Below, one piece after another: positions 1-43,634 of a stretch of DNA of 43,634 nucleotides. Source of the DNA: a virus. The stretch spans positions 1 through 43,634 of the IMG/VR virus record IMGVR_UViG_3300048924_000624; one strand, 5' to 3'. How positions within the stretch are numbered: position 1 is the stretch's first letter; every line of letters begins with the position of its first letter. A model generated the notes under the pieces. The model did not search any database. It was not told the DNA's origin and saw only the letters and a program-made list of their open reading frames with translations. The position numbers were made by a program, and so were the translations under genes.

Positions 1-483
1 ATGACGAAGAAAAAAGCACATAAACCAGGCTCGGCGACCATTGCGCTCAACAAGCGTGCTCGCCACGAGTATTTTATTGAAGAAGAATTCGAAGCTGGCC
101 TTGCATTGCAGGGCTGGGAAGTAAAATCGCTGCGCGCCGGGAAAGCCAATATCGGTGATAGTTACGTGATCCTGAAAGATGGCGAAGCCTTCCTGTTCGG
201 TGCCAACTTCACGCCGCTGACCGTCGCCTCGTCACACTACGTGTGTGACCCAACGCGTACCCGTAAGCTGCTGTTGAACAAGCGTGAACTGGAGTCCCTT
301 TATGGGCGCATTAACCGTGAAGGCTTCACCGTGGTTGCCCTGTCGCTGTACTGGAAAAATGCCTGGTGCAAAGTGAAAGTTGGCGTCGCGAAGGGTAAAA
401 AACAGCACGACAAACGTACCGATCTGAAAGAGCGCGAATGGCAGCTCGACAAAGCACGTATTATGAAAAACGCAGGACGTTGA
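1..483 (+). CDS. smpB: SsrA-binding protein SmpB
   Basis: A 160-residue protein that binds tmRNA and takes it to stalled ribosomes for trans-translation in the cytoplasm. The sequence is nearly that of E. coli SmpB: N-terminal [18 protein letters not shown], the beta-barrel segment with [14 protein letters not shown], and the basic C-terminal tail that enters the mRNA channel (KGKKQHDKR then DKARIMKN). Its length is normal for the family. The gene sits 89 bp upstream of ssrA on the same strand, the usual enterobacterial order, so this is chromosomal backbone outside the prophage. The ATG at base 1 is the first base of the window, so its promoter and ribosome site are not seen. Confidence 0.98.
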
Positions 484-572
484 TTCTGCGCACTTATTGT
501 ACTATTCAATAAGTTAGCGTTCCGGGCTGGTATCCAGGATCTAAAATCTGGTATACTCAGTTCAACACTATT

Positions 573-936
573 GGGGCTGATTCTGGATTCGACGGGATTT
601 GCGAAACCCAAGGTGCATGCCGAGGGGCGGTTTGCCTCGTAAAAAGCCGCAAAAAAATAGTCGCAAACGACGAAAACTACGCTTTAGCAGCTTAATAACC
701 TGCTCTGAGCCCTCTCTCCCTAGCTTCCGCTCTTAAGACGGGGATTCAAGAGAGGTCAAACCCAAAAGAGATCGCGTGGAAGCCCTGCCTGGGGTTGAAG
801 CGTTAAAACTAATCAGGCTAGTACGTTAGTGGCGTGTTTGTTCGCAGCTGGCGTGCGAATGTAAAGACAAACTAAGCATGTAGTACCGAGGATGTAGAAA
901 TTTCGGACGCGGGTTCAACTCCCGCCAGCTCCACCA
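573..936 (+). ncRNA. ssrA: tmRNA (transfer-messenger RNA)
   Basis: The 5' end GGGGCTGATTCTGG and the 3' end GGTTCAACTCCCGCCAGC followed by TCCACCA form the alanyl acceptor and T-arm halves. The resume codon GCA lies at 663-665 and the tag reading frame 663-692 gives ANDENYALAA, followed by tandem stops. At 364 nt it matches the E. coli length. A TATACT -10 box is at 552-557. The 3' end of ssrA is a common integration target for phages and islands, which is relevant because mobile DNA begins just downstream. The tRNA-like half is intact here. Confidence 0.98.
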
Positions 937-1065
937 ATCATGATTGGACAGTGCTAGGACGGCACTAGCAAAAACAGGAAGTTAGCAGTCTCGGCAGGAC
1001 ACCGACCAGACGGTGATGAGACAAAAAAGGATACGCAAAGGAGCCGCGGCTCTTTAGTTACACAG

Positions 1066-1090
1066 AAGCCCGCTAACGCGGGCTTTTTTA
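1066..1090 (+). terminator. Rho-independent terminator between ssrA and the AbiTii gene
   Basis: An 8-bp perfect stem (AAGCCCGC / GCGGGCTT) with a TAAC loop is followed by six T residues. It would end ssrA transcription about 150 nt after the mature 3' end and insulate the next gene. The interval 937-1065 also contains smaller hairpins but no gene that I can support. Confidence 0.8.
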
Positions 1091-1103: not shown

Positions 1104-2024
1104 ATGAATCAACTGCAAGAAATCATTCAGATACTTAGTTCTGGTGATGAAGGCACGACTAATGCTCTCATAAAAACGAAGATCCTGCTCTTCTCTATCG
1201 GGAAAAAGGAGCTTGCAGCATGGGTAAACCATGAAATTAATGGCTATCCTGATTCAGTTGCTCTTCCCGATTATAGAATTGTTGGCACAAGAATTCTTGC
1301 AGACCTGAACAATAGCGTTCGTCTTTACAGTGCTTATCCGTTACCTATTGGTTATCTAAGTGAAGATGACTATGACGACGCTACAACCAGTGAAGTGCGG
1401 CTTTCTATCAGTCAAATTGAAGACTTGGTAACCAACGCCGGTGATAGTAAAACTCTTCAGCAGCCAATTCCTTTGGATTTAGCGTTGGTTAAATATTGCA
1501 AAGGTATCGATAAAGGCTATGAGTTAACACGCTGTTATAAAGAAATTGCACTACATAACTTCACTTCCATATTAACTCAGGTCAGATCACGTCTGCTTGA
1601 TTTCATACTTGAGCTTTCTGATCAAGTTTCTGAAATTTCTGACGAAAAACACATGACAGAAAAACTTAAAAATATCGATACGTCTTCATTGTTCAATAAC
1701 TCAATCTTTGGAGACAATACCGTCATAAACTTCGGAAATGAAAACTCATTTTCCGTAAGTAACAACGTCGTAAAAAACGACATTGAGTCATTAAGAGAGT
1801 ATCTCTCAACTCAGGGATTCTCTAAATCAGATGTTGACGATTTAGAAATTGCTATTGATGAAGATGGCCCAATAGCTAACAAACGTGGTGAATATGGTCA
1901 ATCTGTTAGTAAATGGCTGGCCAATATCGCGAGTAAAGCTGTTAATGGGACTTTGGGAATAGGAATAGCTGCTGCAACTCAGGTAGCAATCGCGGCTCTG
2001 AAAAAATACTACAACCTACCATAA
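1104..2024 (+). CDS. AbiTii-family abortive infection protein
   Basis: A 306-residue protein that I recognise as AbiTii, a family found in phage-defence settings with an unsettled biochemical mechanism. The N-terminal domain shows a helical start, then W40-VNHEINGYP and LPDYR (54-58), which are the family signature. A variable middle leads to the typical C-terminal part from about 225: a short helix pair (REYLSTQGFSKSDVDDLE), an acidic/Gly stretch, then a hydrophobic segment rich in Ala and Gly ending LKKYYNLP. The gene is clearly richer in AT than smpB, which suggests transfer. It stands alone behind a terminator and stops 5 bases before a tRNA-Pro 3' fragment, so it is cargo at the edge of an integrated element. 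The upstream GGGGTAAG is a modest ribosome site. Family assignment is strong; defence activity is inferred. Confidence 0.85.
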   Translation: MNQLQEIIQILSSGDEGTTNALIKTKILLFSIGKKELAAWVNHEINGYPDSVALPDYRIVGTRILADLNNSVRLYSAYPLPIGYLSEDDYDDATTSEVRLSISQIEDLVTNAGDSKTLQQPIPLDLALVKYCKGIDKGYELTRCYKEIALHNFTSILTQVRSRLLDFILELSDQVSEISDEKHMTEKLKNIDTSSLFNNSIFGDNTVINFGNENSFSVSNNVVKNDIESLREYLSTQGFSKSDVDDLEIAIDEDGPIANKRGEYGQSVSKWLANIASKAVNGTLGIGIAAATQVAIAALKKYYNLP

Positions 2025-2028
2025 CTGA

Positions 2029-2074
2029 CATGGGGTGTCGGGGGTCGGAGGTTCAAATCCTCTCGTGCCGACCA
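2029..2074 (+). other. 3' half of tRNA-Pro(GGG) (proL), probable attachment-site remnant
   Basis: From the anticodon loop (CATGGGGTG) through the variable loop, T-arm (GGAGGTTCAAATCCTCT) and acceptor end (CGTGCCGACCA), this matches my memory of enterobacterial proL. The 5' half is absent: the AbiTii stop codon lies 5 bases upstream. Directly downstream comes a hairpin of the kind that follows proL. This is the pattern left by integrases that use a tRNA 3' end as core: the element lies to the left and the host flank to the right. Which element made it is not clear, because ssrA, not an intact proL, lies to the left. Confidence 0.75.
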
Positions 2075-2087
2075 AAAACACATTTAA

Positions 2088-2114
2088 AACCAGCCTCTTA
2101 CGGCTGGTTTTTTT
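2088..2114 (+). terminator. Terminator following the tRNA-Pro fragment
   Basis: Stem AACCAGCC / GGCTGGTT with loop TCTTAC, then seven T residues. It resembles the native terminator after proL in E. coli. Beyond it, 2139-2165 carries two tandem copies of GGGGAAAAAT of unknown meaning. Confidence 0.8.
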
Positions 2115-2279
2115 ATATCTATTTTCTGTACGGGGAATCACTGGGGAAAAATCGGGGAAAAATACCGTCAAAAAATCAGGCACAACAAGCTAATTGCCAC
2201 CGATCCGTTTGTAAGACTTACCAGCACGCTACTTTTTCTCACTGCCCTATACTTTCAGTCTGACTGACTGGAGGTTTAT

Positions 2280-2951
2280 ATGTGTGGACGTTTTGCACAA
2301 GCCCAAACCCGTGAAGAATATCTGGCATACTTGGCCGATGAAGCCGACCGTGACATTGCGTATGATCCGGAGCCTATAGGTCGGTACAACGTCTCGCCAG
2401 GTACCAAGGTTCTGCTGCTGAGCGAACGCGAAGAGCAGCTGCATCTTGATCCTGTTTTCTGGGGTTACGCGCCAGGGTGGTGGGATAAGCCTCCGCTGAT
2501 TAACGCACGCGTCGAGACGGCGGCCACCAGCCGAATGTTTAAACCTCTCTGGCAGAATGGCCGGGCGATCTGTTTTGCCGATGGATGGTTCGAATGGAAG
2601 AAGGAAGGCGACAAGAAACAACCCTACTTCATTCACCGGGCCGACGGCCAGCCGATATTCATGGCAGCAGTCGGCAGCACGCCATTCGAGCGCGGCGATG
2701 AAGCGGAAGGTTTTGTTATAGTGACATCTGCAGCTGACAAAGGCCTAGTAGACATTCACGACCGCCGGCCTCTGGTTTTGTCACCGGAAGCGGCCCGTGA
2801 GTGGATGCGGCAGGATATTGGAGGGAAAGAAGCTGAAGAGATAGCTGCCGACGGCGCAGTGCCAGCCGACAAGTTTGTCTGGCACGCCGTGACGCGTGCC
2901 GTGGGTAATGTGAAGAATCAGGGGGCTGAATTAATCGAAGCCATATATTAA
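2280..2951 (+). CDS. yedK: SRAP-family abasic-site protein (YedK/HMCES type)
   Basis: A 223-residue SRAP protein that crosslinks to abasic sites in single-stranded DNA and shields them until repair. Catalytic Cys2 follows the initiator Met (MCGRF). The other active-site residues are in place: Asn75 in INARVET, Glu105 in DGWFEWKK and His160 in VDIHDRRPLVL. Length and sequence are close to E. coli YedK. The start is well supported by GGAGG seven bases upstream, and a TATACT box lies at 2248-2253. In E. coli yedK is a chromosomal gene elsewhere. Here it lies between an attachment remnant and umuDC, so I read it as phage-carried, forming an SOS/repair cassette with the divergent umuDC; a chromosomal origin is not excluded. 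Confidence 0.93.
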   Translation: MCGRFAQAQTREEYLAYLADEADRDIAYDPEPIGRYNVSPGTKVLLLSEREEQLHLDPVFWGYAPGWWDKPPLINARVETAATSRMFKPLWQNGRAICFADGWFEWKKEGDKKQPYFIHRADGQPIFMAAVGSTPFERGDEAEGFVIVTSAADKGLVDIHDRRPLVLSPEAAREWMRQDIGGKEAEEIAADGAVPADKFVWHAVTRAVGNVKNQGAELIEAIY

Positions 2952-3449: not shown

Positions 3450-3533
3450 CAATTATTGAATGAAATCACTACCAAGATGAATAACCCATAAAATTCATAA
3501 TGAATCACTGGGTAGAAGTGGATCAATAAAAAT

Positions 3534-3635
3534 GTGGCGCCGGGTGCCTCCCGGTGTTTCCCTTACAGTCCCAAGAAACGCGAGCATACTGCAAAATATT
3601 GACTGTTCGCCCCTCCGCTTAGGGGGATTCGCCAC
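3534..3635. ncRNA. Candidate structured RNA of unknown type
   Basis: A GC-rich island in AT-rich DNA. GTGGCG at 3534-3539 pairs with CGCCAC at 3630-3635. Inside are two more hairpins: CCGGG / CCCGG near its left end, and CCCCT / AGGGG near its right end, joined by an A-rich single-stranded stretch. No protein reading frame explains it. The strand is not decided. It reminded me of type I toxin-antitoxin RNAs, but no small hydrophobic peptide is evident nearby. Confidence 0.3.
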
Positions 3636-3762
3636 GGTAAAAAAGTAATGCATCATTTTTGATATGTCAAAATTAAAGCCATATAAATTATATATTCACG
3701 CATGGAATATGCACTTAGATAAATCGAAAACAAATAAATGCTTTACGAATTTCGTTGCAGAT

Positions 3763-3788: not shown

Positions 3789-4022
3789 CTCTGAAATCCA
3801 GAAAAAGATTGTGTACCATAGCATAGCTTCATAAGAAGCTAATTAACTATAGACTACTCACAATAACGATTGTGTCAGAAATAATATTTTTTTAAAGATA
3901 ATGATTTGCATTTCCAGAAAAACCACCCAACCAATTGATTTTTAATCATTTATTGTAATAGCAATACCTTGCCACCTAAAATTCCATCTATCATCTGAGC
4001 AAATCAAACCAGAAGCAGTTAA

Positions 4023-5291
4023 TTACCTGACAACTAACAAATCTGAAAACCGGGTTGTATACCGCGGCGACAGCATTTCGCGTTTCATCTGCCACGGCTG
4101 CTGTATTCCCTGCCCGGCAAAGTAGAGTGTTCCTTTTCCGTCCTTTGCATTCAGGTGATCAAGCACCTCCATTAAACGGTCGCTGCCGGCGCGCGGTGCA
4201 TTCTCGTCAAAGAGGTTCAGTTGGGCAACGCCCCGGCTGAAGAAATCCCCGAGCATAATGCCGGCTTTCTGGTACCGGTGCCCATCCTGCCAGATTTTGT
4301 CTAGGCATTTTACCGCTGCGTTAATGATGTCTCGGGAATCCTGTGTAGGGGTGAGAAGCGTCATTGACGCACTATTACCGTAATAAGGCTCATTAAGCGC
4401 AAAAGGGGATGTCTTCACGAATGCAGAAATAAAGCGGCAATATTGATGCTCTCCGCGAAGCTTTTCAGCACCTCTTGCCGCATAACTGCATATAGCCTGG
4501 CGTATCTGCTCATAGGCGGTAACGCGTTCACCGAATGACCGGCTACAAACGATTTCCTGTTTTGCGGGGGCAAACTCTTCCAGATCAAGACAGGGTTCGC
4601 CGCGCAGCTCCCTGACAGTGCGCTCGAGTACCACATTAAAGTGTTTCCGGATTATCCACATACTCTGCTCTGAAAGGTCTAAGGCCGTTTTAATACCCAT
4701 CGCATTTAGCTTTTTACTGATTCGGCGACCAACACCCCAGACGTCCTCTACAGGTACCACAGAAAGCAGTCTGCGCTGGCGATCAACATTTGAGAGGTCA
4801 ACTACCCCACCCGTCTGCCGCTGCCATTTCTTTGCGGCGTGGTTGGCCAGCTTAGCGAGTGTTTTTGTCTGCGCAATGCCAACCCCGACAGTCAGATGCG
4901 TACGCTTCAGAACTGTCGCGCGGATCTCTTTGCCGAAGTCAGTCAGGTCCCGGCAGTTCCTAACGCCCGTCAGGTCACAAAAAGCTTCATCGATACTGTA
5001 AATTTCGACGCGGGGGCTCATTTCCTCAAGCATCGTCATTACCCGGTTCGACATATCAGCATACAGCTCATAGTTGCTGCTGAAGCAGACAACGCCTGCG
5101 CGCCGGAAAAGCTCCTTTTGCTTGAAGAACGGCTCCCCCATAGTAATTCCAGCCGCCTTGGCCTCAGCGCTTCGGGCTATCACACAGCCATCGTTATTCG
5201 AGAGAACAACAACCGGCCGGCCTCTTAAATCGGGCCTGAACACCGTCTCGCATGATGCGTAGAACGAATTCACATCACAGAGCGCGAACAT
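4023..5291 (-). CDS. umuC: DNA polymerase V catalytic subunit UmuC
   Basis: A 422-residue Y-family translesion polymerase that, with processed UmuD' and RecA, copies damaged DNA with low fidelity. Catalytic acids are present: Asp6 in [11 protein letters not shown] and Asp101-Glu102 in [12 protein letters not shown]. The steric-gate Tyr region and helix-hairpin-helix ([12 protein letters not shown]) follow, and the beta-clamp motif QLNLF lies in the C-terminal third. Length is that of E. coli UmuC (422). The gene starts 2 bases after the umuD stop and shares its LexA-controlled promoter. A umuDC pair beyond the tail-fibre end of a prophage raises the mutation rate and damage tolerance of the lysogen. 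Confidence 0.96.
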
Positions 5292-5293
5292 GT

Positions 5294-5713
5294 TTAGCTC
5301 GCCGATTTGACGATGAAAGTCACGACGCCGAAAACGTCCAGCGTGTCTTCGCAGCCAACAACAATAGGACTGTAGGCGCTGTTCATAGGATTGAGTTGCA
5401 CGGTCGGGCGCAGTTGCAGGCGTTTAACAGTAAACTCCCCTTCCACCGCGGCGATGACTATGTCACCGTGCTCAGCAGTTCTGGAGCTGTCCACCACCAG
5501 CAGATCGCCGTCGCTGATCCCGGCTTCGATCATAGAATCACCCGCGGCTTTAACGAAATACGTTGAACTCGGGTGAGCGACAAGTAACTCATTGAGATCG
5601 ATGCGCTGCTCAACGTAATCAGCCGCGGGGCTTGGGAAACCACACTGCACTATGTCACTGAAAAGCGGGAGAACAATAATTTCTCTCAGTTCTGTAGGTC
5701 TGAAGAATTCCAT
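5294..5713 (-). CDS. umuD: DNA polymerase V accessory protein UmuD (LexA-like autoprotease)
   Basis: 139 residues counting from [10 protein letters not shown], the same length as E. coli UmuD; an in-frame extension upstream runs through the LexA box and is rejected. The self-cleavage site is Cys24-Gly25 (VQCGFPSP), with catalytic Ser60 (AGDSMIEAG) and Lys97 (EFTVKRLQL). RecA filaments stimulate removal of the first 24 residues to give UmuD', the active partner of UmuC. The gene is first in a tight umuDC operon and lies just below a consensus SOS box. Confidence 0.97.
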
Positions 5714-5728
5714 TACGCATACCTCTAA

Positions 5729-5748
5729 TACTGTTTTTATATACAGTA
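5729..5748 (-). promoter_or_regulatory. LexA (SOS) box upstream of umuD
   Basis: TACTGTTTTTATATACAGTA contains CTGT-N8-ACAG with an AT-only centre, extremely close to the E. coli consensus. It lies 16 bases upstream of the umuD start, so LexA bound here would cover the promoter. It is the only full SOS box I found in the window. The stretch 5749-6018 shows no gene that I can support. Confidence 0.93.
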
Positions 5749-6018
5749 GTTTCATTTGGGTTTGCGCGCAAGACACCACGGTTCCAGCGACTGAACGAAG
5801 CTTCACCGTTTCGTTTGTAAGTTACTATCTCACTTCAAATTTCGGCTTTTGTAAATTTTCCTGGCATGCCCCTAACTGCACATAATTAAATCAATCTCAA
5901 GCACTAAATTTTATCTAAAGCGCTTAAAAAGCCAGTAGCCAGGTTTTCTATCCACAACTTAAACCCTGAACGTCCAATATCAGGGTCTGGTTTTAACACA
6001 CAAATTTTTAAACACATA

Positions 6019-27004: not shown

Positions 27005-27688
27005 TCAATTTTGTTGCTTCAGCTCTTTTTTCCCTGCAGCTGCAGCAACTATTTTCTCTGATCTAAGTCGTCTGTTTTCTCGTTCAACATACCAATCGCT
27101 AAGCAACGTCTCTATCAAGCTAATGAGTAGCTCAGCCTCCTCTTTGTCGACATCAATAATCAGATCAATGTCTTTTTCCATGTGGGCACCAATATTACCA
27201 ATACTTCTTATTGCATCTATTGCATGCCATGTATCTGAGTCGACTTTTTCTTGAATGGCCTTAATCTCTTCAAAGAGATTTTTTTCTTTTACGCCCCAAA
27301 AGTCTCTTATCATCCCTTGCAAACATCGGCGCGCTAATGTTGCGGATGCCTTTGGCGAGAGCGTCGCAATCATCGCAGACTCTCTATAATCATTAAGAAT
27401 CGCTTTTGGTATGTAATTTGGAAACTGCTTGACTACTCCTTGAGGGCGGTGCATCCAACTTTCGATGGGCTCTGCTATAACATACTTGTTCCCTTCTATC
27501 TTCGCTGAGCCTATCTCTGAAATATAAGTAAATTCCTTACAGTCAGGATTTGGACAGACCTGAACCCACGATTGCACAAAAAGCTTGCCCTGCTTTGTAT
27601 CAGCGTCAACAACATAGTTACTATACTTTTGTTGGATTTTGGCCTTGACTGACAGGCGGCCACAAAACGGACATTCCCAAGATGACAT
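27005..27688 (-). CDS. DUF4145 protein with N-terminal zinc ribbon
   Basis: 227 residues. The N-terminus has two Cys pairs, Cys6/Cys9 (CPFC) and Cys45/Cys50 (CPNPDC), forming a zinc ribbon. The DUF4145 helical domain follows: YIPKAILNDYRESAMIATLS, RRCLQGMIRDFWG and the signature RSIGNIGAH (161-169). DUF4145 occurs alone or fused to restriction and other defence enzymes and is thought to bind nucleic acid or partner proteins; no reaction is known to me. The gene is AT-rich, has its own promoter (27716-27744), a good ribosome site (GGAGGTTAAA) and its own terminator. That makes it a self-contained cargo unit between lysis and packaging genes. Confidence 0.82.
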   Translation of the reverse strand: MSSWECPFCGRLSVKAKIQQKYSNYVVDADTKQGKLFVQSWVQVCPNPDCKEFTYISEIGSAKIEGNKYVIAEPIESWMHRPQGVVKQFPNYIPKAILNDYRESAMIATLSPKASATLARRCLQGMIRDFWGVKEKNLFEEIKAIQEKVDSDTWHAIDAIRSIGNIGAHMEKDIDLIIDVDKEEAELLISLIETLLSDWYVERENRRLRSEKIVAAAAGKKELKQQN

Positions 27689-36687: not shown

Positions 36688-37347
36688 ATGAAAACAGAGA
36701 TGAAAGACCGAATAAGATCCCGTCGAGTCCAGCTCGATATAACGCAGCAGACCCTAGCTAAACGCCTAGGTGTTAGCCGCGTGTCCGTTACTAAATGGGA
36801 GAGCGGTACAACGAAGCCTGATGGTGAGAACCTCCATCAGCTGGCGATGGCGTTGCAAACCACGCCTGAATGGATTCTCTACGGGAAAGGAGATGAAGCG
36901 CAGGATGACACGAAAGTGATCCCCTTTCTCAAACCCCCTAAGGCAGTTCCAATTATCTCTGCTGTCCAGGCAGGGACGTGGACTGATACTTACGCATGCT
37001 CAAGGCTTTCTGATGTGATTTCATGGACGCAAACCACTGCAAACGTTTCTGATGAAGTATTCGGCCTGGTTGTTCGTGGGGAATCGATGACTAACCCACA
37101 TGGTCTACCATCCATTCCCGAAGGGTCGATCGTAATAGTTGAACCACACTATGGCCAATTGGATGACCTTTACGGAAAAATAGTCGTGGCGTTACTTGAT
37201 GGCTCTGCTGAAGCAACAGTGAAAAAACTCGTCTGGGATAGCCCTTTCGCGTATCTGATGCCGCTTAATCCTGCCTTCAAACCTATACCAATAGATGGCA
37301 ATTGCCGGATTGTTGGTAAAGTTGTTCAGATAACCCAGAATATTTAA
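36688..37347 (+). CDS. cI: CI-type repressor, self-cleaving
   Basis: 219 residues. N-terminal XRE helix-turn-helix (TQQTLAKRLGVSRVSVTKWE), then the LexA-like protease domain: cleavage site Ala95-Gly96 (VQAGTW), Ser133 (GESMTNP) and Lys179 (ATVKKLV). RecA filaments trigger cleavage, so the prophage is SOS-inducible. It holds both early operons from operators that flank it (36626-36687 and 37401-37449). No ribosome site is seen before the ATG. A terminator follows. Confidence 0.95.
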   Translation: MKTEMKDRIRSRRVQLDITQQTLAKRLGVSRVSVTKWESGTTKPDGENLHQLAMALQTTPEWILYGKGDEAQDDTKVIPFLKPPKAVPIISAVQAGTWTDTYACSRLSDVISWTQTTANVSDEVFGLVVRGESMTNPHGLPSIPEGSIVIVEPHYGQLDDLYGKIVVALLDGSAEATVKKLVWDSPFAYLMPLNPAFKPIPIDGNCRIVGKVVQITQNI

Positions 37348-41257: not shown

Positions 41258-42442
41258 ATGGCAGCAAGGCCAAGAAAAAAAGAATACCGACACCTGCCAG
41301 ATTATTTATTTTTTGATAAAGATCGCGGTGTTTATAAATTCACGCTTGTTATAGGAAAGAAGAAGAATATTGGTAAGGATCGGGCCATGGCTATAGCTAT
41401 TGCCCGTGAGTACAACCTTAGAATGAGACCTGAACTTTCCCCATCCGTTGATAGCCTCATTAGAGAATCCGGCGGGGTTACTGGAGAAGCCAAACCGTTT
41501 GCAGACCATGTGGATCACATCATGGCTCGGGCTGTTGAAGATGAACGCCCTTCTCAGAGTACTTTAGATGATTGGAACAATGACGCACTACGCGTGAAAG
41601 AGTTTTTCATTAACATACCTGCTTGCGATATCGAGCTGGAGCACATTAACGCCTACATCAATAAGTACCATGCCAGCGCGTCCGCTAACGTGCAAAACAG
41701 AAAAGTCAGCTTTCTCAAAAAGCTTTTTTCGTATGCGGTCGATGAATCCTTAATGCTCGACAATCCAGCGACTAGAAAGAAAATGCGCAGGACCGAAGAG
41801 AAGAAAAGGCAACGCTTGTCGCTAGAGCATTTCATGGCTATACGTCGTGCCGCGGCGCCGTGGTTAAGAACTGCGATGGATTTGGCATTACAGACGACAC
41901 ATGCACGCCTGGAAGTGTCAAGGATTCGTTATTCAATACGTGCACCAAAGAACGGTGTTTGTGGTTGTGTGTGGTTCGAACAGCCGACAGACGGCATTTA
42001 TGGAACGCTGTATATCCATCGCCAAAAGGTGCAAAAGAAGGAAGCTTCACACGTTGCGATCCCTATTGGCGGTGAGCTGAAACGTATAATTGATGAGAGT
42101 CGGGATAACGTAGCAAGTCCATTTGTTGTTCACAGAATTCCTGATCGGCAGGTTAAACGTAGCAAAGAGGTTTCACATCCAACGCAGGTTGCTCCCGATT
42201 ACTTAAGCCGTTCCTTTTCAGCACTGCGAGACAAACTGGGTCTATGCGATAAAATGGCTATGGAAGAAAGGCCAACGTTTCATGAAATTCGAGCATTGGC
42301 CGCACATCTTTTCGATCAGCAAGGTATCGATCCACAAGGACGAATGGCGCATAGTGATGCGAAGTCAACTAAGATTTATACGCAAAACCATATCGATTGG
42401 GTTATAGTACCACATGGTGAAATTCTCTCAAAAACAAACTGA
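41258..42442 (+). CDS. int: Tyrosine-recombinase integrase (lambda Int type)
   Basis: 394 residues. N-terminal arm-binding domain (MAARPRKKEYRHLPDYLFF), a core-binding helical domain (about 75-170), and the catalytic domain with Arg217 (HARLEVSRI), a Lys in the beta hairpin (about 260), His342-x-x-Arg345 (FHEIRAL), His365 (RMAHSD) and Tyr374 (KIYTQNH). The phage attachment site should lie beyond the end of this gene, but no repeat of the ssrA 3' end or tRNA-Pro fragment is found between here and the window edge. Confidence 0.95.
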   Translation: MAARPRKKEYRHLPDYLFFDKDRGVYKFTLVIGKKKNIGKDRAMAIAIAREYNLRMRPELSPSVDSLIRESGGVTGEAKPFADHVDHIMARAVEDERPSQSTLDDWNNDALRVKEFFINIPACDIELEHINAYINKYHASASANVQNRKVSFLKKLFSYAVDESLMLDNPATRKKMRRTEEKKRQRLSLEHFMAIRRAAAPWLRTAMDLALQTTHARLEVSRIRYSIRAPKNGVCGCVWFEQPTDGIYGTLYIHRQKVQKKEASHVAIPIGGELKRIIDESRDNVASPFVVHRIPDRQVKRSKEVSHPTQVAPDYLSRSFSALRDKLGLCDKMAMEERPTFHEIRALAAHLFDQQGIDPQGRMAHSDAKSTKIYTQNHIDWVIVPHGEILSKTN

Positions 42443-42503: not shown

Positions 42504-42860
42504 ATGAAGACGTTTGAGTTACTTAACAAAGGTGATAAATCTGTAATTGATATTTATAAAGATGCGCATGCGATGTGGGATGAAATATTCGCTAAAGAGT
42601 GGACCGCATCGAATTTATCAGACACACTTGGCAGCGTCCAAACCACATTTGAATATAAATTAAAGAAATATGGTCTAAATCGTTGGGAAGGGCAAGAAAT
42701 ATTCGTAATCACTGGATTGACTTACTTCGACAATGATTATGACATGAATGAAAATAAGGCTAAAGAAGTTAGCTTAGCATTTGAAATGAGTTGGTGTAGC
42801 ATTGAGGTCAAGAGCCTCGCAAAGAGACTTTCTAAGGCTCTATACATTGGAGGTTTTTAA
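42504..42860 (+). CDS. Hypothetical partner of the RelA/SpoT protein, 118 aa
   Basis: MKTFELLNKGDKSVIDIYKD, acidic, alpha-beta, cytoplasmic, AT-rich; GGGGAAGAA precedes the ATG. No family recognised. The stop TAA abuts the ATG of the next gene with no gap, so the two are translated together. Such pairs with a RelA/SpoT-domain gene are usually antitoxin and toxin, and the first gene is the likely antitoxin. The pair follows the integrase and is transcribed in the same direction. Confidence 0.65.
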   Translation: MKTFELLNKGDKSVIDIYKDAHAMWDEIFAKEWTASNLSDTLGSVQTTFEYKLKKYGLNRWEGQEIFVITGLTYFDNDYDMNENKAKEVSLAFEMSWCSIEVKSLAKRLSKALYIGGF

Positions 42861-43634
42861 ATGGCCTTTCCAATACCTTATAATTTCGAACAATACATTG
42901 CATGGCACAATCAAGAAGTTGAACCAGGCGGTGATCTTATCGCTAATTTAAACTCATTAATGGAATCATTAAAAGAAAATAAAGAGAGATTTGAAAAGCT
43001 TGCGCAAATATTAGAAAACTTAAATACAGCTTTGTTACGAGCTAAACAAACTGCAGACATTGACATTAAGTCGTATAAATGCGAGTTACTGTTAAATTCA
43101 CAGCTTCCGACGGAAAAATATATTGAAATTTTTAAATCAATTGAATCGATAGTTGATAAGTTATGGAGAAAAAACAAAGGTGCAACGAATTACATCACAA
43201 GTGAAAATATAAAAGAAAACATTAAGGATTTAGTGAGAAGCTCGGTTATTTTAAGCACCCATAATTTTGCAAATGACTTCAGTAAAGCCCTACTAAACTG
43301 GAGGAAAATATTTGACATAAATAAAATACCATTAGATGAATATTCTGACATTGTCGATATAAAGGTTGAGCAAGAGGCGAAAATGGCGAGTGGTTATTTT
43401 GCTTATCACGCTGATGTTATTTACAATGATGGAGTTCATGTAGAAATTCAGATTTACTCTCAGTTAAATGAGGTATGGAGAGGTTTATCTCATAAACTCT
43501 ATGAAAAAACTCGTCTTCAACAAGATGTAGAATATGGACATGGTACTAGCGCATCACGATTAGTTTCTTTGGGTCATTTGCTTCACTTAGCAGAATGTGA
43601 GGCTGAGCGTCTGCAAAGTGATTTCGAAAAATAA
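42861..43634 (+). CDS. RelA/SpoT-domain protein (small alarmone-synthetase-like, candidate toxin)
   Basis: 257 residues. A helical N-terminal half (about 20-90) leads to the nucleotidyltransferase-like synthetase domain: Lys92-SIESIVDKLWRK, Asp123 in KDLVRSSVI, the GYxxxH motif (168-173, GYFAYH), Glu185 in VEIQIYS and WRGLSHKLYEK after it. The acidic residues of the active site are kept; some basic ones are changed (QIYS for QIRT), so the substrate may not be GTP/GDP. There is no hydrolase domain. ToxSAS relatives stop growth by making pppApp or modifying tRNA ends. The gene is AT-rich and ends at the last base of the window. Confidence 0.8.
   Translation: MAFPIPYNFEQYIAWHNQEVEPGGDLIANLNSLMESLKENKERFEKLAQILENLNTALLRAKQTADIDIKSYKCELLLNSQLPTEKYIEIFKSIESIVDKLWRKNKGATNYITSENIKENIKDLVRSSVILSTHNFANDFSKALLNWRKIFDINKIPLDEYSDIVDIKVEQEAKMASGYFAYHADVIYNDGVHVEIQIYSQLNEVWRGLSHKLYEKTRLQQDVEYGHGTSASRLVSLGHLLHLAECEAERLQSDFEK

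Follow-up and report, generated by a model that had tools for sequence, protein, structure and literature searches.

The 3' end of ssrA is said to be used by many integrases, reportedly the theme of Williams's "Traffic at the tmRNA gene" of 2003. P2-like phages and P4-like satellites carry antiviral hotspots in which variable anti-phage genes are held between conserved phage flanks (PMC9122126), and in the map of E. coli defence islands, hotspot #9, at the tmRNA locus, combines integration at the ssrA 3' end with variable defence cargo (PMC10121019). Lactococcal AbiT consists of two genes, abiTi and abiTii (PMC3985639, citing Bouchard 2002); lactococcal AbiTi and AbiTii were found to be non-toxic in E. 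coli, and C. catus AbiTi toxic (PMC3985639). The AbiTii domain has been described as alpha+beta with a highly conserved glutamate, and it occurs N-terminally, followed by a C-terminal extension, in the AbiTii-HEPN fusions of the c2405 and Ymh families (PMC3710099).

Here we describe an AbiTii-family gene located between ssrA and the 3' half of a tRNA-Pro(GGG) gene (proL) in an IMG/VR provirus record of 43,634 nucleotides (IMGVR_UViG_3300048924_000624), the whole of which we term the window. The reading we favour, and consider fairly probable as a whole, is that the gene is cargo of a slot at the end of ssrA-integrating prophages, that a prophage with a proL-class integrase sits on the fossil half-site bounding that slot, and that AbiTii serves as a single-gene abortive effector.

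Layout of the window and its AbiTii gene

Host sequence opens the left end of the window, where the smpB ORF (1 to 483, plus strand) is followed by ssrA (573 to 936, plus strand; tmRNA identified by ARAGORN and Rfam RF00023). The last bases of ssrA (911 to 936, plus strand; GGGTTCAACTCCCGCCAGCTCCACCA) form an att core that recurs as a 26-27-bp direct repeat in complete AbiTii prophages of E. coli. A conserved, phage-borne leader ending in a terminator hairpin comes next (937 to 1089, plus strand), then the AbiTii gene (1104 to 2024, plus strand; 306 aa), and, after four intervening bases, the tRNA segment (2029 to 2074, plus strand). This segment is identical at 46 of 46 bases to positions 32 to 77 of E. 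coli tRNA-Pro(GGG), a match far beyond chance; it begins at the anticodon loop and reaches the CCA end, the 5' half is absent, and ARAGORN makes no call there because the tRNA is truncated. The original prediction, that an AbiTii-family gene ends just before this half and shares the interval from ssrA to the scar with no other cargo, is borne out in both respects.

A further terminator lies 3' of the half-site (2086 to 2118, plus strand; hairpin 2086 to 2111), ahead of a gene for an SRAP (HMCES/YedK-like) protein (2280 to 2951, plus strand; PF02586, 2.8e-51), which in proL phages is the first gene right of the proL half, and a umuC-like and umuD-like pair (4023 to 5806, minus strand), next in the proL-phage gene order. 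Past this pair are Mu/P2-type tail genes and then portal and terminase genes on the minus strand. A CI-type repressor gene is found at 36688, a tyrosine integrase gene at 41258 to 42442 (plus strand), and, at the integrase end (42504 to 43634, plus strand), two genes encoding a 118-aa protein without a family and a 257-aa RelA/SpoT-domain protein (PF04607, 2.6e-7), the second of which forms the end of the record. These two gave no PADLOC match and are possibly a toxSAS-type pair. A match to the STnc100 sRNA family (65.7 bits) occurs in the SRAP/umuC interval (3484 to 3664, minus strand), and a minus-strand gene beside the terminase region (27005 to 27688) matches PADLOC PD-T7-4 weakly (1.5e-14).

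The Pfam AbiTii profile (PF18864) matches residues 4 to 192 of the 306-aa product at E=1.1e-33 (117.5 bits against a cut-off of 27.6), placing it in that family, and PADLOC AbiTii matches the same ORF at 1.2e-33. The helical C-terminal region corresponds to phrog_16090 (residues 184 to 305) and drew no convincing Pfam match. Alignment of relatives revealed W40, E44, G47, Y48, Y57 and R58 as invariant residues of the N-terminal alpha+beta domain, E44 being comparable with the conserved glutamate already described (PMC3710099). An assignment as a HEPN nuclease was rejected, there being neither a profile match nor, in the alignment inspected by eye, a conserved R-x(4-6)-H in the C-terminus. The ORF is intact and subject to purifying selection (dN/dS 0.10-0.22 against closer relatives, synonymous sites being saturated for more distant pairs), in keeping with the earlier proposal that the gene has been retained. 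None of the 34 window proteins matched AbiTi, in a library that possibly holds no AbiTi model, and the slot contains a single gene in the window and in the AbiTii relatives examined, so that a two-gene AbiT arrangement is not present. An AlphaFold model built on 14 sequences (pLDDT 76, pTM 0.62) returned nothing below E=0.2 from the PDB and viral structure libraries, and the protein had no match among 50,697 phage records. The T-tract of the leader terminator precedes the AbiTii start by about 15 bp in the window, and no sigma-70 promoter for the gene was found; read-through is therefore the likeliest route, and AbiTii would probably be expressed by read-through from ssrA or from the leader.

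ssrA-integrating prophages and their cargo slot

Comparison of the region downstream of ssrA across genomes, as the original prediction had proposed, revealed that AbiTii is variable and borne by a mobile element, a defence-type gene at an attachment site. Close homologues (86-89% DNA identity) are present in 38 of 5,426 complete E. coli genomes, and AbiTii of any kind in five of 61 Enterobacter genomes. One genome (G033), which is probably of the same species as the window because their smpB-ssrA regions (window 1 to 937) are 99.5% identical, carries a different integrase element 3' of ssrA, without AbiTii there. A core-genome gene, the finding that would have overturned the prediction, was rejected on this evidence, AbiTii being absent both from most genomes and from the ssrA locus of that close relative.

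The carriers are ssrA-integrating prophages. Those of E. coli CFT073, SFE8 and AR436 are complete (41.8-48.4 kb) and lie between 26-27-bp copies of the ssrA 3' end; one end begins with AbiTii, and the other holds the integrase gene. The AbiTii start lies 165-170 bp past the ssrA core in the complete E. coli examples and in all relatives examined in viral contigs that include upstream DNA, except a truncated one (L318) and a distant one (L034). Judged by these sequences, complete ssrA prophages normally carry AbiTii as their outermost gene, and not as what a deletion left behind. Degraded AbiTii elements of about 8-13 kb, with truncated ssrA integrases, are found in Enterobacter G001 and G062. 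An AbiTii remnant in Enterobacter genomosp. O (L006, near 7830) has a shortened ssrA core, GACTCCGCCAGCCCACCA; in this arrangement of tandem elements, other DNA amounting to about 37 kb lies between ssrA and that core.

Among relatives, a proL half normally begins within 4-8 bp of the AbiTii stop; it is intact in most, decayed in four (L315, L316, L318, L325) and mostly lost in another (L317). Because the stop precedes an intact or decayed half inside ssrA phages, the half there is, by every appearance, an internal, decaying fossil att site; the original prediction had taken it for the edge of an element, which in relatives it is not. A visible source for the putative fossil is provided by E. 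coli 100181, in which a prophage occupies the real proL (yejM-tRNA-Pro). The attL/attR core of this prophage contains the same 46 bp, and its end runs tRNA-Pro, SRAP, umuC, umuD, dinI, an order shared with the window. Two further viral records bear proL halves. In L034 (IMGVR_UViG_3300034522_000038, 3964 to 5260), a 44%-identical AbiTii has an apparent tRNA-Leu 3' half on one side and a proL half on the other, suggesting that the design of new att, cargo and old att has been repeated with another new att site. The Gifsy-2 record (L030, 1507 to 2347) has a proL half near the Gifsy-2 end, with unannotated SRAP-like sequence after it; we read this half as another fossil proL site, the integration site of Gifsy-2 presumably being other than proL.

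The ssrA att core and the proL half delimit a slot of about 1-1.6 kb, walled on its left by the leader and on its right by the half-site, whose cargo is swappable among relatives. The leader is 76-98% identical across 29 relatives with different cargo, and the end of its terminator (fold z = -2.67) is nearly fixed at +149 to +156. Slot genes were mechanical ORF choices, and cargo types were drawn from the matches listed in a pattern scan of viral contigs, so that counts of them are to be read as samples: AbiTii alleles (56-98%), a TIR protein (L167), a DUF4145 protein (L289), a DUF3800 protein (L048; PADLOC PDC-M04A, 8.5e-93), DUF4236 proteins in several relatives, 2-TM proteins (L106, L126, L132) and a family of about 275-277 aa with no known affiliation (L214, L295, L190). 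In E. coli FDAARGOS_1302 the slot holds a DpnII/MboI-type nuclease together with PD-T4-3 (8.6e-137). The 2-TM proteins have apparent transmembrane segments at both ends and no convincing family match. The approximately 275-aa family, whose L214 copy matched nothing in Pfam or PADLOC, is a candidate new defence gene. With varied defence-type cargo inside the same ssrA and proL flanks, the slot qualifies as a putative prophage defence hotspot, and its genes are probably anti-phage.

AbiTii might instead be phage cargo with a non-defence function, such as lysogeny maintenance or regulation, a view with which the lack of a matching solved fold and the missing AbiTi partner are both consistent. The occupants of the same slot in relatives, comprising PD-T4-3, TIR, a DpnII/MboI-type nuclease and a PADLOC candidate, constitute a defence-like repertoire and argue against it, and we regard such a function as possible but unlikely. 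Our best guess is that AbiTii is probably a single-gene abortive-infection effector from which the lysogen would benefit, a view for which its Pfam and PADLOC matches and its low dN/dS speak; the helical C-terminal region may be the effector.

Integrase class and ancestry of the window

The window integrase is not of the ssrA class, its match to the ssrA-class integrase of CFT073 having E=0.07. It shares 95% amino acid identity with integrases of G076 and G075 and is 70-95% identical to integrases paired with a proL half, which assigns it to the proL class. For integrases of the proL class, 42 of 42 loci with the site in reach show a proL half 0.14-2.5 kb further downstream, a count that leaves out three with too little DNA; those of the ssrA class have the ssrA end in 12 of 12 reachable loci and a proL half in none. 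Four E. coli homologues of the window integrase retrieved by DNA search are all at proL. Once the integrase proved to be proL-class, we abandoned an initial idea in which the present prophage of the window carries AbiTii as cargo.

The window contains a left copy of the ssrA core (911 to 936), with no second copy inside the record, and a left copy of the proL half (2029 to 2074). Its last two genes share 73% and 75% identity with the end genes of the 100181 proL prophage (L303, 39779 to 40903), in which the proL half of attR begins about 200 bp after the homologues of the 118-aa and RelA/SpoT genes; the record therefore breaks off about 200 bp short of the point where the right junction is expected.

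The change of ancestry coincides exactly with the 46-bp proL core. Relative to the G001 AbiTii remnant, the window differs at 18 of 1092 positions left of the core, 0 of 46 within it and 12 of 89 to its right (Fisher p=4.6e-7), whereas relative to an ssrA phage (G069) the pattern is reversed, with 105 of 1092, 0 of 46 and 1 of 89. The phage backbone (2021 to 33694, late genes and more) is 98.6% identical to a prophage of another Enterobacter (G030) that lies between two ssrA repeats and has an ssrA-class integrase and a DUF4236 slot gene; near-identical backbones therefore occur with either integrase class. The arm right of the scar (2075 to 2262) is best matched by ssrA phages (99.5-100%), not proL phages, and from about 33.7 kb on the best relatives of the window include proL phages. 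It follows from these comparisons that the proL core of the window is the seam between an AbiTii end and a phage of different ancestry.

The anatomy of the slot, the pairing of integrase with att site and the breakpoint at the proL core are matters of observation; the simplest account of them, and our best reading, is a proL-class prophage that occupies the fossil half-site within an older ssrA element. Lambdoid/Mu-tailed prophages of one family integrate in the ssrA 3' end and have AbiTii as slot cargo. A proL-integrating ancestor would have exchanged its integrase and attP for the ssrA type, the old proL att dying and the cargo coming to sit between the new att (ssrA) and the old (proL). The end of such a phage is ordered as ssrA att core, leader of about 153 bp with its terminator, one swappable gene and fossil proL half, with SRAP/umuDC/dinI and tail genes to the right. 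Here, a prophage encoding a proL-class integrase would have become joined at the fossil half-site, beside the AbiTii end of the older ssrA element, and AbiTii would thus lie outside the present prophage, stranded by nested insertion between ssrA and a proL-type prophage. Degraded AbiTii elements of the right kind exist (G001, G062). Against the nesting stand the end of the record, some 200 bp short of the right proL half that the account expects, and the affinity of the arm at 2075 to 2262 with ssrA phages; a search of 27 records gave no second proL-class prophage adjoining an ssrA slot. The same picture would result from a homologous crossover in or close to the half-site.

Homologous recombination offers a different route to the same sequence: AbiTii might lie inside a prophage bounded by ssrA repeats, the early region and integrase of which were swapped by exchange with a proL phage. 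The G030-like backbone, the arm right of the scar and the turn towards proL-phage relatives near 33.7 kb all speak for this, and it is the arm that keeps the idea in play. The last two genes of the window are, however, those that abut attR in the 100181 proL prophage, which means that the second crossover must fall in the non-homologous stretch before the ssrA repeat; the breakpoint at the proL core is left unexplained, and the resulting prophage could not excise by its own integrase. We consider this origin improbable. Still less credence, and very little, attaches to the deletion first envisaged, in which AbiTii is the last gene of a deleted element, kept for its benefit, with the tRNA-Pro half as edge. 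The degraded elements of G001 and G062, with their truncated ssrA integrases, and the low dN/dS of AbiTii fit that scenario. Yet complete ssrA prophages have the proL half in their interior, so that no deletion is needed to place AbiTii beside it, and a complete-looking prophage lies right of the scar. What survives of the original prediction is the remnant itself, in all likelihood an older element's stranded end; its deletion step gives way to a second, tRNA-Pro-type prophage joined at the fossil site, which explains the stranding better than deletion does.

Comparison with described systems

The 98.6% identical backbones with ssrA-class and proL-class integrases indicate that temperate phages have changed integration site recently, the old half-site being kept as the wall of a defence-gene slot. 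The slot also offers a simple rule for finding further anti-phage genes, namely to take the first gene after ssrA that ends at a tRNA-Pro half; PD-T4-3 already figures in the slot's cargo. We suggest, tentatively and as something we rather doubt, that the proL half and the ssrA leader together act as an exchange cassette through which single defence genes pass from phage to phage, the half-site still serving proL-class integrases as a place to land within ssrA prophages. Were this so, old att sites would be docking points for layered prophage stacks of mixed specificity, with defence genes at their seams.

The slot resembles the hotspots of P2-like phages and P4-like satellites, but its walls are a live ssrA att core with leader and a fossil proL att half, and it usually holds one gene (PMC9122126). 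It shares ssrA 3'-end integration and variable defence cargo with hotspot #9, in whose description a term search of the text found neither a proL half-site slot nor AbiTii mentioned (PMC10121019). The AbiTii domain is common to lactococcal AbiT and the present locus, which has one gene with an extra C-terminal region in place of two (PMC3985639). AbiTii-HEPN fusions share the domain order and differ in that R-x(4-6)-H is not conserved in the C-terminus here (PMC3710099). Closest to the proposed nesting are the tandems of a tRNA-Ile2 PICI with a fis PICI, in which mismatched internal att sites mark a second element of different site specificity within or beside the first (PMC10111431); those elements are satellites and their arrangement was put down to homologous recombination, whereas the elements here are prophages and the breakpoint falls at an att core.
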